DNA from: Leadbetterella sp.
GTDB taxonomy: Bacteria > Bacteroidota > Bacteroidia > Cytophagales > Spirosomataceae
DNA length: 64,000 nt
Direction: 5' to 3'
NCBI GenBank assembly: GCA_019638185.1
Contig: JAHBUH010000006.1
Location: 1 to 64,000, forward strand
Made by a program: the position numbers and the translations under genes. How positions within the stretch are numbered: the first letter of the stretch is position 1; every line of letters begins with the position of its first letter. The notes beneath the pieces were generated by a model, which was not told where the DNA came from, searched no databases, and worked only from the letters and a program-made list of their open reading frames with translations. Shown piece after piece: positions 1 through 4,967 of this stretch.

Positions 1-1488
1 AAATTCATGATAGTCATAAATTCTATCAAACTCTTTATCAATAGGAACAACTGACTTGAAAAGCATTTTAGTAAAGTCATATAATAACTGAGACATTGGT
101 GCCAAATAGTTACTTCCTAACAAACGATTTAATAGACTATGATCCATCAATAGCCTTGGATTAGTTTTCTCCAAAAGGCCCATCGAGTTATATCTATCAA
201 AGAATTCAACACTTAAGATAGAGTTAAGAAAAGAAAATCTTTGACTTGCAACAGCAGCTATTCCAATTACATATCTTAGAATAAGACTGGGTAAATATTG
301 CAAATCCGACCATACTTTAAAATTGGAGCCGCTTTTATTATGGTCCACATTCCCAGATTCCTTAAGAACATTTATCCATATATTATTTTGATAATCCCTT
401 CCCCAGAAAACGCATTCTGCTAAAATTGAACTCAAAGTTTTCAGTTTTTTTTGATACAAATCAATCACCTCCTTTATATATGGTTCTGTAGGAGATATGA
501 AAGGAATAGCATAAATACTACTAAAGGTCTCATTGGAAATACCCGAGATAAGATCATTAAGCTGTATAATATGTTCCTCTTTAGTAATATATTTTTTAGC
601 TCTTTCTAACGCTATTCGCGGTGATAGAGGGTGCTCAAAAACATCTTTCTCCAACGCCAAAATATCTTCATGTAATTCGTAAAAAAACATATCTGCACTT
701 TCAATTTTAACCAGCTTCCCTTTTCGAAAAGACGATAATTCTTCCAATTCCATTTCGTATTTACTGTGGTATGTAAAGTAACTGGAAAATCTGAACTTGT
801 TTGATGCTTTTAAAATATTTACTAAGGCTAAGTCCCACTTTGCAGACCAACCACATGAAATTAATCCAAAATTTTCAAATATATCGATCATTAATCTTTC
901 TAAGCGCGGATCATACTTCTCTAATTCGCTTTTGAGGTTTAAAAAACCTGTATCAAGATAATCCCCGTTAATCTTTAAAATAGTTACTTTGCTGTGAACA
1001 ATTGGCATAACATTATCAATATGACTTGGATTTGAGATAACAGTTGGCTCAATCCCATTATTCTTTAAAGCATTTTCTAGCAAACGATCAAAGTTTGTAG
1101 TTACGATCACTTTTACATACCCAAGTTTTACCAATTTAGCTATATAATCATGGGCTTTTGTAGGGAGTTTTAGCCCGTCTTCGATTTCATTTTGAGAAGG
1201 TTCTATAAACGGTTTTAACAGATTTATTCTCTCTTCTGTAGTTAAAGTAAGTTGTCCTATTATATCTGAGTAATCAGGCTGTTGATTAAACGTTTTTACA
1301 TACCATTTTTCAGGAGTTTCTTCAATTTCTTCTTTTCTAATTTTAGCTATTCTATTGATTAGCTCTAAAGTTATTTCCCATCCTGTTGGAATTCCGGCAC
1401 TTCTTGAGATTCCTGAACCAAGAAATAAAGCAAAGGCTCCTTTATTACTAAAAATAGAATGGGCTATTGTTATTATTTGCTTATTCAT
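1..1488 (-). CDS. SIR2-domain protein, probable NAD-consuming defence effector (C-terminus beyond window)
   Basis: I translated this frame by hand; it is open for 496 codons from the ATG at 1488 to the window edge, so the C-terminus is missing. Residues ~15-225 look like a SIR2-type Rossmann fold: a GSGIS nucleotide-binding loop at 24-28, TTNFD at 130-134 with the expected Asn at 132, and GWSAKWDLAL at 213-222. In the position of the usual His-Gly the protein has KINGDY (172-177), so Asn174 replaces the catalytic His of sirtuins; this argues against a deacetylase. The rest is a helical region of at least 270 residues of unknown role. SIR2 domains in bacterial defence proteins (ThsA, DSR2, SIR2-APAZ systems) usually degrade NAD+ on infection; that role here is inferred. 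The start overlaps the end of the upstream gene by 8 nt, so the two are almost certainly co-expressed. The gene is much more AT-rich than the rest of the window. Confidence 0.82.
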   Translation of the reverse strand, partial: MNKQIITIAHSIFSNKGAFALFLGSGISRSAGIPTGWEITLELINRIAKIRKEEIEETPEKWYVKTFNQQPDYSDIIGQLTLTTEERINLLKPFIEPSQNEIEDGLKLPTKAHDYIAKLVKLGYVKVIVTTNFDRLLENALKNNGIEPTVISNPSHIDNVMPIVHSKVTILKINGDYLDTGFLNLKSELEKYDPRLERLMIDIFENFGLISCGWSAKWDLALVNILKASNKFRFSSYFTYHSKYEMELEELSSFRKGKLVKIESADMFFYELHEDILALEKDVFEHPLSPRIALERAKKYITKEEHIIQLNDLISGISNETFSSIYAIPFISPTEPYIKEVIDLYQKKLKTLSSILAECVFWGRDYQNNIWINVLKESGNVDHNKSGSNFKVWSDLQYLPSLILRYVIGIAAVASQRFSFLNSILSVEFFDRYNSMGLLEKTNPRLLMDHSLLNRLLGSNYLAPMSQLLYDFTKMLFKSVVPIDKEFDRIYDYHEF

Positions 1489-2185
1489 GATCAGATTTTT
1501 CAATAATATTAATTAAAAATTGGCTTATTTGCTGAGTTTCTTCTTCGTCTAACTCACTGAATAAATTAATAATTTTTTTAGTATGAAACCACGTCTTTAT
1601 CCCGATTGAAAAAGCAATTTTTAAGATTTCGCTTTTCAGATCAGAAACAGTTCTTGAAGCAATACTTTTTTCAAAAAGGACATTTCCCTCTTGAAAGGCT
1701 TCTTTTTGATTATTTGAGTTATCTTGAGATTCTTCAGAAACACTTTCGAAATGTTTTTTGTAGCTATCAAATACTCTATAAACTCTAACATTTCCTGATA
1801 GTCTATAAGCAGTAATAGGGTCAATAGTAGACAAAATATCTATGGCTTCCATGTATTTCGATTCTAAACCTTTTAAATTATCTTTTATGAAATCATACAC
1901 TAAAGATTGCATAATCGGAACCAGTATTTTATTAAGTTGTACCAATTCTTGGGAAGTAGGTTCCTTGGGAGCAATCTTTAAAAGTTCAGCAACAACCACT
2001 TCCTTAATGGATTCACTATCATATTTCTTCAAAATGGATAGAACCTCTAAAAGATTAAAGAGTACTTGCTTTTTTATCTTTCTCGTAGTACCTCTGCTTC
2101 TCAAGAAAAGACTGACCTCGTTAAGTAACCATCCAAGGCTTACTCCTAGTAGTCCAGAGAGATATGTGAAATCTATTTTATTCAA
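1481..2185 (-). CDS. membrane-anchored protein of unknown function, partner of the SIR2 protein
   Basis: This 234-residue protein has one hydrophobic segment at about residues 6-27 and then a charged, mostly helical cytoplasmic part with no motif I recognise. A polar Ser/Asn/Gln/Glu-rich linker sits near residues 148-165. The only available start is TTG at 2185, because an in-frame stop lies a few codons upstream and no early ATG exists. The stop overlaps the SIR2 start by 8 nt, which indicates translational coupling. By analogy with other two-gene effector systems it could be a sensor, an inhibitor or a membrane tether for the SIR2 effector; this is inference from position only. Low GC supports horizontal acquisition of the pair as a unit. 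Confidence 0.7.
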   Translation of the reverse strand: MNKIDFTYLSGLLGVSLGWLLNEVSLFLRSRGTTRKIKKQVLFNLLEVLSILKKYDSESIKEVVVAELLKIAPKEPTSQELVQLNKILVPIMQSLVYDFIKDNLKGLESKYMEAIDILSTIDPITAYRLSGNVRVYRVFDSYKKHFESVSEESQDNSNNQKEAFQEGNVLFEKSIASRTVSDLKSEILKIAFSIGIKTWFHTKKIINLFSELDEEETQQISQFLINIIEKSDHE

Positions 2186-2991: not shown

Positions 2992-3073
2992 ATAGTATTT
3001 TGATTCCTAACTTTACATCATTTAAACCCATCAGTTTCGAGAGATTTAGAACTAAAGCTGAAAATAAATAACG

Positions 3074-3603: not shown

Positions 3604-3957
3604 ATGAAGAAATTAGTAGTAGCACAGTTTTTAGACGACTTTAAAGTCAAGATGAAAGTATGGGATATTATCTTTATGGATGACAGGGCGAAAAATGTAA
3701 AAACGCTTTCGTTATTGGAGATAAGTCCTGGTGAGAGAAAGAAGATAATTGAAGGTCTTTCACTTGAAGACTATGCAGAGGGGCCAGTGCCGGATAAACA
3801 GTTTTTAGGGGATGACCTCTGGGTATTTGGGATGGTAGTTAAGCAACAGGAAATATATATTAAGATTTCCCTGGGATTACCGAATAAAAGGGTCATTTGT
3901 GTTTCTTTTCATGTGGCAGAGTACCCAATGAAATACCCGTTTAAACATAAATCCTGA
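3604..3957 (+). CDS. MqsR-like type II toxin
   Basis: This is a 117-residue cytoplasmic protein without signal or membrane segment. I recognise it as the small protein regularly found in front of DUF4065/Panacea antitoxins in Bacteroidota and usually named MqsR-like; the C-terminal VCVSFHVAEYP-like segment (about residues 98-109, with ICVSFHVAEYP) is its most characteristic part. MqsR toxins are mRNA interferases of the RelE/RNase Sa fold; that activity is assumed here. The antitoxin follows after 5 bases, in toxin-first order as in mqsRA. Its own -7 box lies just upstream. The family assignment is moderate, the toxin role is well supported by context. Confidence 0.7.
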   Translation: MKKLVVAQFLDDFKVKMKVWDIIFMDDRAKNVKTLSLLEISPGERKKIIEGLSLEDYAEGPVPDKQFLGDDLWVFGMVVKQQEIYIKISLGLPNKRVICVSFHVAEYPMKYPFKHKS

Positions 3958-3962
3958 AAATA

Positions 3963-4967
3963 ATGAGAACGATAGAAAGTCCGTTTAGTGATAATGTCCT
4001 GGAAGTGAAGATGCGGAAAGAAACGCTGCCTTTCCGTAAGGAGGAGTATGAGGTGATATATCATTATTATGAAGACTGCGGGCAGCAGTTTACTACCGAT
4101 GAGCTGGATGAGATTAATCTCCGCCAGGTGCATAATCAGTATCGTGAAAAGTATAACCTTCCTTTTCCTGATGAGATTAAGGGATGTCGGGAGAAATATG
4201 GGCTTTCGGCCTCTAAGATGGCCGAAGTGCTGGGCTTCGGTATTCATATTTACCGGCAGTATGAAGCGGGAGAGGTGCCGAGCCTGTCTAACGCCCGGCT
4301 GATTCAGCTGGCAGATGACCCGGAAGAATTTAAAAAACTGGTTTTGCTCGGTGGGGCCTTAGAAGGCAGGGAAAAGGAGAAAGTTTTGAAAACGGTGGAG
4401 CGGCTGATAGAGATGAAGCATAAGCAGACCCATGATGAGCTTATTGCTCAATATGTTTTGGGGGTAGAAGATAAGCCTACACGTTATAACGGTTATAAAC
4501 GAGCCGTCATTGGAAAGACTTTCCGCGTGATTCAGCATCTTATTACGCAGTTGAATCCCACCAAGACAGCATTGAATAAGTTACTTTTCTATGTTGATTT
4601 TATGCATTTCCGTAAGTGCAGTGTGTCGTTCCTGGGGCTGGAATATCGTGCAATAGAATATGGTACAGTGCCCAGCCGTTATGAAAGCCTGCTGGAATAT
4701 GGTGCTGAGGCGGGATATATTGTTCGTCACAGGGAGCTTATGGATAATGGGAGATACAAAGAAACTTACAGCATGGGTGAGCGATCTATAGATGCGGATT
4801 TTACAAGCGAGGAGATGGATACATTAATGCAGGTGACAGATAGGTTTGGGAATTGTAACGTGTCTGATCTGGTGGCCATAAACCATGAAGAAGAAGCCTG
4901 GACAGATAATAGGTTGGAAAAGCAGAAGGTAGATTATACTTACGCTTATAAACTGAAAGCGATTTAA
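3963..4967 (+). CDS. HTH-Panacea (DUF4065/SocA) antitoxin
   Basis: The 334-residue protein is a fusion. Residues ~1-60 resemble the start of MqsA-type antitoxins but lack the zinc-binding cysteine pairs. Residues ~70-125 form an HTH of the MqsA/Xre type (EKYGLSASKMAEVLGFGIHI followed by YEAGEVPS). Residues ~185-334 are a Panacea domain, recognised by KTALNKLLFYVDFMHF and the following EYGTVPSRYESLLEYG segment. Panacea domains are promiscuous antitoxin modules that neutralise unrelated toxins (PanAT systems). The protein should neutralise the toxin encoded 5 bases upstream and repress the operon through its HTH. The next gene is convergent, 9 bases away. Confidence 0.8.
   Translation: MRTIESPFSDNVLEVKMRKETLPFRKEEYEVIYHYYEDCGQQFTTDELDEINLRQVHNQYREKYNLPFPDEIKGCREKYGLSASKMAEVLGFGIHIYRQYEAGEVPSLSNARLIQLADDPEEFKKLVLLGGALEGREKEKVLKTVERLIEMKHKQTHDELIAQYVLGVEDKPTRYNGYKRAVIGKTFRVIQHLITQLNPTKTALNKLLFYVDFMHFRKCSVSFLGLEYRAIEYGTVPSRYESLLEYGAEAGYIVRHRELMDNGRYKETYSMGERSIDADFTSEEMDTLMQVTDRFGNCNVSDLVAINHEEEAWTDNRLEKQKVDYTYAYKLKAI

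Follow-up and report, generated by a model that had tools for sequence, protein, structure and literature searches.

The window analysed here, a 64,000 nucleotide stretch of Leadbetterella sp. DNA, begins with two overlapping genes, a SIR2-like gene and, upstream of it, the gene for a second protein that is referred to here as the partner (Table 1). The partner gene starts with TTG (2185–2183) and ends with TAA (1483–1481), and the SIR2 gene starts with ATG (1488–1486), which bears out the overlap described in the first-pass annotation. The pair had also been described as AT-rich and as adjacent to phage-type remnants, and both observations stand. Its G+C content is 31.7 % compared to 50.0 % for positions 3000–64,000, and only two of 310 segments of 2185 bases (step 200) are lower. 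The remnant is a KilA-N-type fragment (2719–2904) that shares 57–70 % identity with KilA-N proteins in the plasmid matches listed, and the stretch around it is interrupted by stops. Further along, at 3604–4967, a 117-residue ORF without a family precedes a gene for an HTH protein in which MqsA-like and SocA/Panacea domains were recognised; the two look like a Panacea-type toxin-antitoxin pair. That the SIR2 gene and its partner form an integron cassette was considered and rejected on the integrase, none of the 11 matches to TIGR02249 in the genome being over the cut-off.

Table 1. Positions of the genes, domains and residues discussed in the text
Feature	Position	Strand	Basis
SIR2-like gene, PDC-S65 family	1..1488	-	PDLC05061 E 7.4e-167; Pfam SIR2_2 E 6.6e-07
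SIR2 Rossmann-type domain (predicted), about residues 1–280	649..1488	-	Inferred from the L030 model and PDB matches
Asn174 codon, HG-motif position	967..969	-	SPARSA and KomC have His there (profile alignment)
His165 codon, family-invariant His	994..996	-	His in 81/81
Asn132 codon, Asn of the sirtuin Asn-His dyad	1093..1095	-	Asn in 81/81 aligned members
Partner gene encoding 234 residues (predicted all-helical, with a probable N-terminal membrane anchor)	1481..2185	-	Held-out family recovery, E 2.5e-43
Overlap of partner stop and SIR2 start, 8 nt (ATGAATAA)	1481..1488	-	Sequence
DPITAYRL family motif of the partner, residues 122–129	1799..1822	-	Family alignment
N-terminal hydrophobic helix of the partner, residues 9–28, then Lys/Arg-rich stretch	2102..2161	-	Hydrophobicity and family alignment

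The contig starts at base 1 of the window and the SIR2 gene is, therefore, incomplete, with 496 of about 585 codons visible and the 3′ end missing. The remainder was not found elsewhere in the same genome when this was searched with a full-length relative. Relatives mostly have about 575–600 codons in a neighbourhood survey of 80 loci, and the visible protein is 46 % identical to full-length relatives of 564–575 aa. Residues 2–496 align with positions 16–514 of the 592-position PADLOC model, and by this match over 495 residues the protein is assigned to the candidate defence family PDC-S65; the gene is a probable anti-phage enzyme gene. The PDC families are presented in PMC12988326 as single-gene candidates obtained by guilt-by-embedding, most of them without experimental validation so far, and S65 does not appear by name in its main text. 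No paper naming PDC-S65 or PDC-S35, nor any combining SIR2, transmembrane, anti-phage, two-gene and NADase, was found among the open-licence papers searched.

By sequence, the closest solved SIR2 is the SIR2 part of SPARSA (8jkz, E 2e-20 in a PDB profile match). SPARSA was also the best match by fold (8y80, E 2.5e-11), followed by DSR2, ThsA and KomC, in a comparison that rests on a good model (mean pLDDT 89.8, pTM 0.57) of the relative L030 rather than of the window protein. The Asn of the dyad, Asn132, is present and aligns with the TTNFD stretch of SPARSA SIR2, whereas the His of the HG motif is absent and Asn174 stands in its place. In SPARSA, H186 (of 186-HGD-188) and N142 are reported to be required for NADase activity (PMC10781750). 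The corresponding His is reported to matter in FAM118 proteins too, in a source that also cites its importance in SIRT2 and ThsA (PMC12700824), and KomC(H146N) is the title of a PDB entry. Hence, NADase activity of the window protein should not be assumed.

The substitution is not confined to the window. His occupies position 174 in 61 of the 81 aligned members, and Asn in the other 20. Nine positions (N132, D134, H165, K172, G175, D176, G213, S215 and D219) are identical in all 81, and Gly is found at positions 24 and 26 in all but one member, which has a gap there. On a quick tree built without bootstrap, the His/Asn trait changes 11 times, with at least five of the changes forced by well supported branches, and the nine Bacteroidota rows, including the window, form one well supported Asn group. 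The trait is more clustered on the tree than shuffled labels, for which the mean is 18 changes. We read this as a repeated exchange in a protein that appears still to be under constraint.

PDC-S65 relatives are widespread, with 269 found in genome contigs, a further 35 plasmid records and one phage record. The best 80 of the 269, which were taken for analysis, come from many bacterial phyla and from archaea. In the family to which the host belongs, some PDC-S65 match was found in nine of 222 genomes, and a match of query length only in the genome containing the window and in G092. At 17 of the best 80 of 269 loci a same-strand gene lies tightly upstream (gap ≤22 nt), and 12 of these 17 neighbours match a type I restriction specificity domain. 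PDC-S65 genes that overlap or closely trail type I restriction specificity genes were seen at L045, L050, L055, L083, L085, L088, L094 and others. Gene overlaps of 4–8 nt are common at other PDC-S65 loci, and some of 20 hand-picked downstream neighbours match known defence models, such as a type I restriction enzyme in two cases. A partner-like ORF was present at none of the best 80 of 269 loci. Though PDC-S65 is filed as a single-gene family, the window member overlaps a partner gene in an arrangement seen nowhere else in this set. A conserved second gene downstream of the SIR2 gene, hidden by the contig end, was also considered and rejected. When flanking ORFs of at least 120 residues were compared for ten close relatives (L030–L034, L036–L038, L070 and L103), nothing general was shared; the exceptions were the SIR2 gene itself, the near-copies L037 and L038, and a local match of 86 residues that links L030 with L032.

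The partner was said to match no known partner from Thoeris, DSR, SIR2-HerA or SIR2-Argonaute systems, and it has no good match to any library family either. The best match in Pfam (E 0.02) is below the cut-off, PADLOC and NCBIfam returned none, the best in PHROGs has an E of 0.093, and a PDB profile search with six members of the partner family gave a best E of only 0.016. A structure model built from the single sequence was poor (mean pLDDT 38.4). After the TTG start, the next in-frame Met is residue 92. The proposed single membrane pass of the partner depends on an N-terminal hydrophobic helix of modest strength. The highest Kyte-Doolittle mean over 19 residues is 1.38, at residue 10; this value lies under the threshold used (1.7) and was matched or exceeded by 128 of 200 shuffles of the protein, and for the window partner the hydrophobic signal alone is weak. 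However, in all 13 family members tested the hydrophobic maximum over the full protein length begins at or before residue 14, a position that for L003, L117 and L129 depends on the start codon chosen, and an N-terminal membrane anchor is probably present. By the positive-inside rule, the Lys and Arg residues after the helix would keep the helical domain of the partner in the cytoplasm.

The partner family was assembled from 15 loci, the window included, 14 of them independent. When each of 13 members (L158 and L159 being outside this test) was held out in turn, a profile of the others recovered it at E 6.7e-55 to 6.5e-15, and no other among 4950 ORFs reached E 10. The core of the family is a DPxxAYxL-like motif, in which Pro123 and Ala126 are invariant in the 12 members aligned. 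The nearest relatives of the window partner are those at L131 (33 % identity) and L132 (32 %), and L128 is nearly as close (31 % or 29 % by two comparisons). Genome searches returned 1 match in 19 genomes, 5 in 395, 4 in 390, 5 in 395, 1 in 46, 3 in 59 and 3 in 74, tallies that count the own or centre genome and come from searches with overlapping sets of genomes. Two weak matches from the search of 59 genomes (G1302 and G1286, E 4e-4 and 6e-4), which span 78 residues within much longer frames, were left out of the count. Plasmid searches added relatives from Alteromonas macleodii and Pseudomonas sp. DY-1; the Alteromonas protein is present in seven plasmid records, two of which were examined, and was counted as one locus. 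A search of phage records led nowhere, patterns were matched in viral contigs and none was confirmed, zero of 53 stretches were confirmed when genome contigs were searched with a single partner protein, and plasmid searches with the L111, L112 and L130 proteins gave no match. As judged from its sequences, the family is coherent, sparse and undescribed.

The neighbours of the partner family were examined using SIR2 and TIR profiles against 140 flanking ORFs of at least 90 residues at 14 loci other than the window, so that other NAD-consuming enzymes could be missed. None of the 14 loci has a SIR2 match beside the partner-family gene, and a TIR match is present only at L131 and L132. Neither type of gene was found at 12 of the 15 loci. 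Tight same-strand coupling to a SIR2 or TIR gene was seen at two of 14 independent loci, namely the window and the cassette shared by L131 and L132. Elsewhere, the nearest same-strand neighbours found are at least 49 nt away, with two exceptions. At L118 a 94-residue open-ended ORF lies 14 nt away at a contig end, and at L159 a 170-residue ORF that may not be real overlaps the partner-family gene.

Of the remaining loci, L116 has an nSTAND NTPase and an Mrr-type nuclease 205–231 nt from the partner-family gene, L130 has a HigB-type toxin and HTH pair, L134 has a RelE/ParE-type toxin with NadS, and at L133 an NAD-using KptA homologue is found two genes upstream. Nothing telling lies near L128, L158 and L159, among others. 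At L003, a 271-residue protein (3870–4685) without a good Pfam match sits 57 nt before the partner-family ORF, and we take it to resemble a uracil-DNA-glycosylase-type fold. At L118 (4819–6807, in G553), the partner-family gene is about 300 nt from a bona fide integron integrase, which scores 443.7 bits against a cut-off of 265.

At L131 and L132 alike, only 5 nt separate the end of the TIR gene from the partner-family gene that follows it. The TIR gene product has matches to PF10137 (E 1.5e-39) and PDC-S35 (E 5e-92), scores far under the cut-off of NCBIfam Cap12 (40 bits, where 450 are required) and, from its family, is a probable NADase. Though the two loci come from different bacterial families, they share one 1642 bp block of 97.4 % identity that includes just these two genes, together with six short matches of 37–169 bp (74–89 %). 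The block ends near GTTAGGC/GCCTAAC core-like sequences. L131 contains six repeat copies spaced 1.0–1.8 kb apart and no such array was found in L132 within the stretch examined; from integron core sites, we presume that the repeats are attC-like. The region 3996–10834 of L131 appears as an integron-like array with attC-like repeats, which contains single genes, such as MerTP, and the TIR pair. dN/dS values of 0.047 and 0.091, from 24 and 18 differences, were obtained for the two cassette genes; protein changes are few in both, and both look to be under selection. A search for relatives of the TIR protein in viral contigs led nowhere, and a partner-like ORF was present at none of the eight TIR loci examined, out of 1135 plasmid records matched. 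This PDC-S35/CAP12-PCTIR arrangement resembles the window in that genes for a partner-family protein and for an effector that probably consumes NAD form a tight unit of two. The differences are that the effector is a TIR rather than a SIR2 protein, that its gene comes first and that the unit is an integron-like cassette.

SPARSA combines a short Argonaute with SIR2-APAZ. Here, no Argonaute was seen on the visible side of the SIR2 gene, and the SPARSA dyad His, H186 (PMC10781750), is Asn here. Thoeris ThsA, DSR2 and KongMing KomC have a similar SIR2 domain; they match less well than SPARSA, and their partner genes are absent on the visible side. None of the partner genes of SPARSA, SIR2-HerA, Thoeris or DSR was found upstream of the SIR2 gene, the downstream side being outside the assembly. 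In the long-B Argonaute systems BPAS and BPAM, SIR2_2 or trans-membrane effectors are described as interchangeable (PMC10620215). Exchangeable effectors are the feature in common, though the constant part is an Argonaute in those systems and the membrane protein here.

The first-pass annotation had proposed a candidate two-component anti-phage system, for which repeated adjacency of the partner to SIR2 genes in defence islands would count as support. A SIR2 protein of a candidate defence family, an overlapping partner without a known family and a probable N-terminal anchor agree with the proposal, and the TIR cassette rescues it in part. The SIR2 pairing itself is not repeated, and homologues of the partner occur mostly without SIR2, which was found only in the window among the 15 loci. 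A SIR2-specific two-component system fails in the data reached, and a widespread obligate two-gene system was rejected, given that no SIR2 gene was found at the 14 other partner loci and no partner-like gene at the best 80 of 269 PDC-S65 loci.

Our tentative first choice is that the partner is a membrane-anchored accessory protein, optional and exchangeable, that is functionally coupled to effectors of the SIR2 or TIR type. The elements on which this builds, namely the two genes, their overlap, the partner family and the TIR cassette, can be read from the sequences. The pair would form a two-gene operon in which a SIR2 effector that mostly acts without this partner is joined by an optional accessory, one able to couple to unrelated probable NAD-consuming effectors, SIR2 here and TIR in the integron-like cassette. 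With its N-terminal helix in the inner membrane and its helical domain in the cytoplasm, the partner may contact the effector and hold or gate it at the membrane; in defence, on infection, the effector would attack NAD+ and the cell would stop. Since the closest relatives of the partner pair with a TIR gene, there are two instances of coupling to an effector that probably consumes NAD, the enzymes being unrelated and of different folds, and these are both of the clear cases of tight coupling (n=2, noticed post hoc). The same-strand 8 nt overlap, the assignment of the SIR2 protein to PDC-S65, the coherence of the family, the signs of selection on the cassette genes and the N-terminal hydrophobic peak also favour this explanation. 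Against it are the opposite gene order in the two couplings, the weak anchor helix in the window, the Asn at the HG-motif position, the absence of SIR2 and TIR genes from 12 of 15 family loci, including that of the close relative L128, and the lack of a partner-like ORF at the best 80 of 269 PDC-S65 loci and at the eight TIR loci examined of 1135 records.

Because only two couplings are available and were noticed afterwards, functional coupling is held no more firmly than this, and a real, if lesser, possibility is that two independent accessory genes have come to lie side by side in an AT-rich island, the SIR2 protein acting alone, as it does elsewhere in PDC-S65, and the partner having an unrelated job. 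This is a serious rival. Both families are nearly always found apart, and overlaps of 4–8 nt are common at PDC-S65 loci too. PDC-S65 genes also occur in other clusters; in 12 of the 17 cases with a tight upstream neighbour, this neighbour is a type I restriction specificity gene. However, the TIR cassette repeats the theme with another effector, and elsewhere the same-strand neighbours found for partner-family genes keep a distance of at least 49 nt, the L118 ORF at 14 nt and the doubtful L159 ORF excepted.

The roles might instead be reversed, with an Asn-type SIR2 protein binding a nucleotide and signalling to a membrane protein that damages the membrane. The replacement of the dyad His by Asn174, the many partner genes that stand alone and the occurrence of membrane and SIR2 proteins as alternative effectors in long-B Argonaute systems, as described in PMC10620215, would fit. 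We consider it unlikely, in that all the other pocket positions examined are invariant or nearly so in both Asn and His members, which suggests that catalysis is kept, and a single weak N-terminal helix would make a poor pore. The partner might also act like an antitoxin, keeping its enzyme, whether SIR2 or TIR, inhibited at the membrane until the cell is infected. This would suit the tight coupling, and long-B Argonaute is reported to restrain its SIR2 partner comparably (PMC10620215), but it is the least probable of the explanations, as no partner-like gene was found at the best 80 of 269 PDC-S65 loci, so that the enzyme family needs none, and many partner-family genes have no enzyme.

Returning to the exchangeable accessory, a broader form of it is doubtful. 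In that form, the undescribed, helical and anchored DPxxAYxL family would be a common exchangeable platform for SIR2 and TIR NAD-consuming effectors that spreads with them in integron-like cassettes, and among the SIR2 proteins served would be naturally occurring ones that have repeatedly exchanged the His of the HG motif for Asn. This alternation affects a position that is taken as essential in SPARSA, and it poses the testable question of whether the invariant His165 is used instead or some members of the family lack NADase activity. Should the pairing be coincidental, the SIR2 gene in the window has nothing unusual about it within an already known candidate family. If it is functional, two large classes of bacterial immune enzymes would be connected through one family of membrane proteins, and this would raise the question of where in the cell the attack on NAD+ begins.
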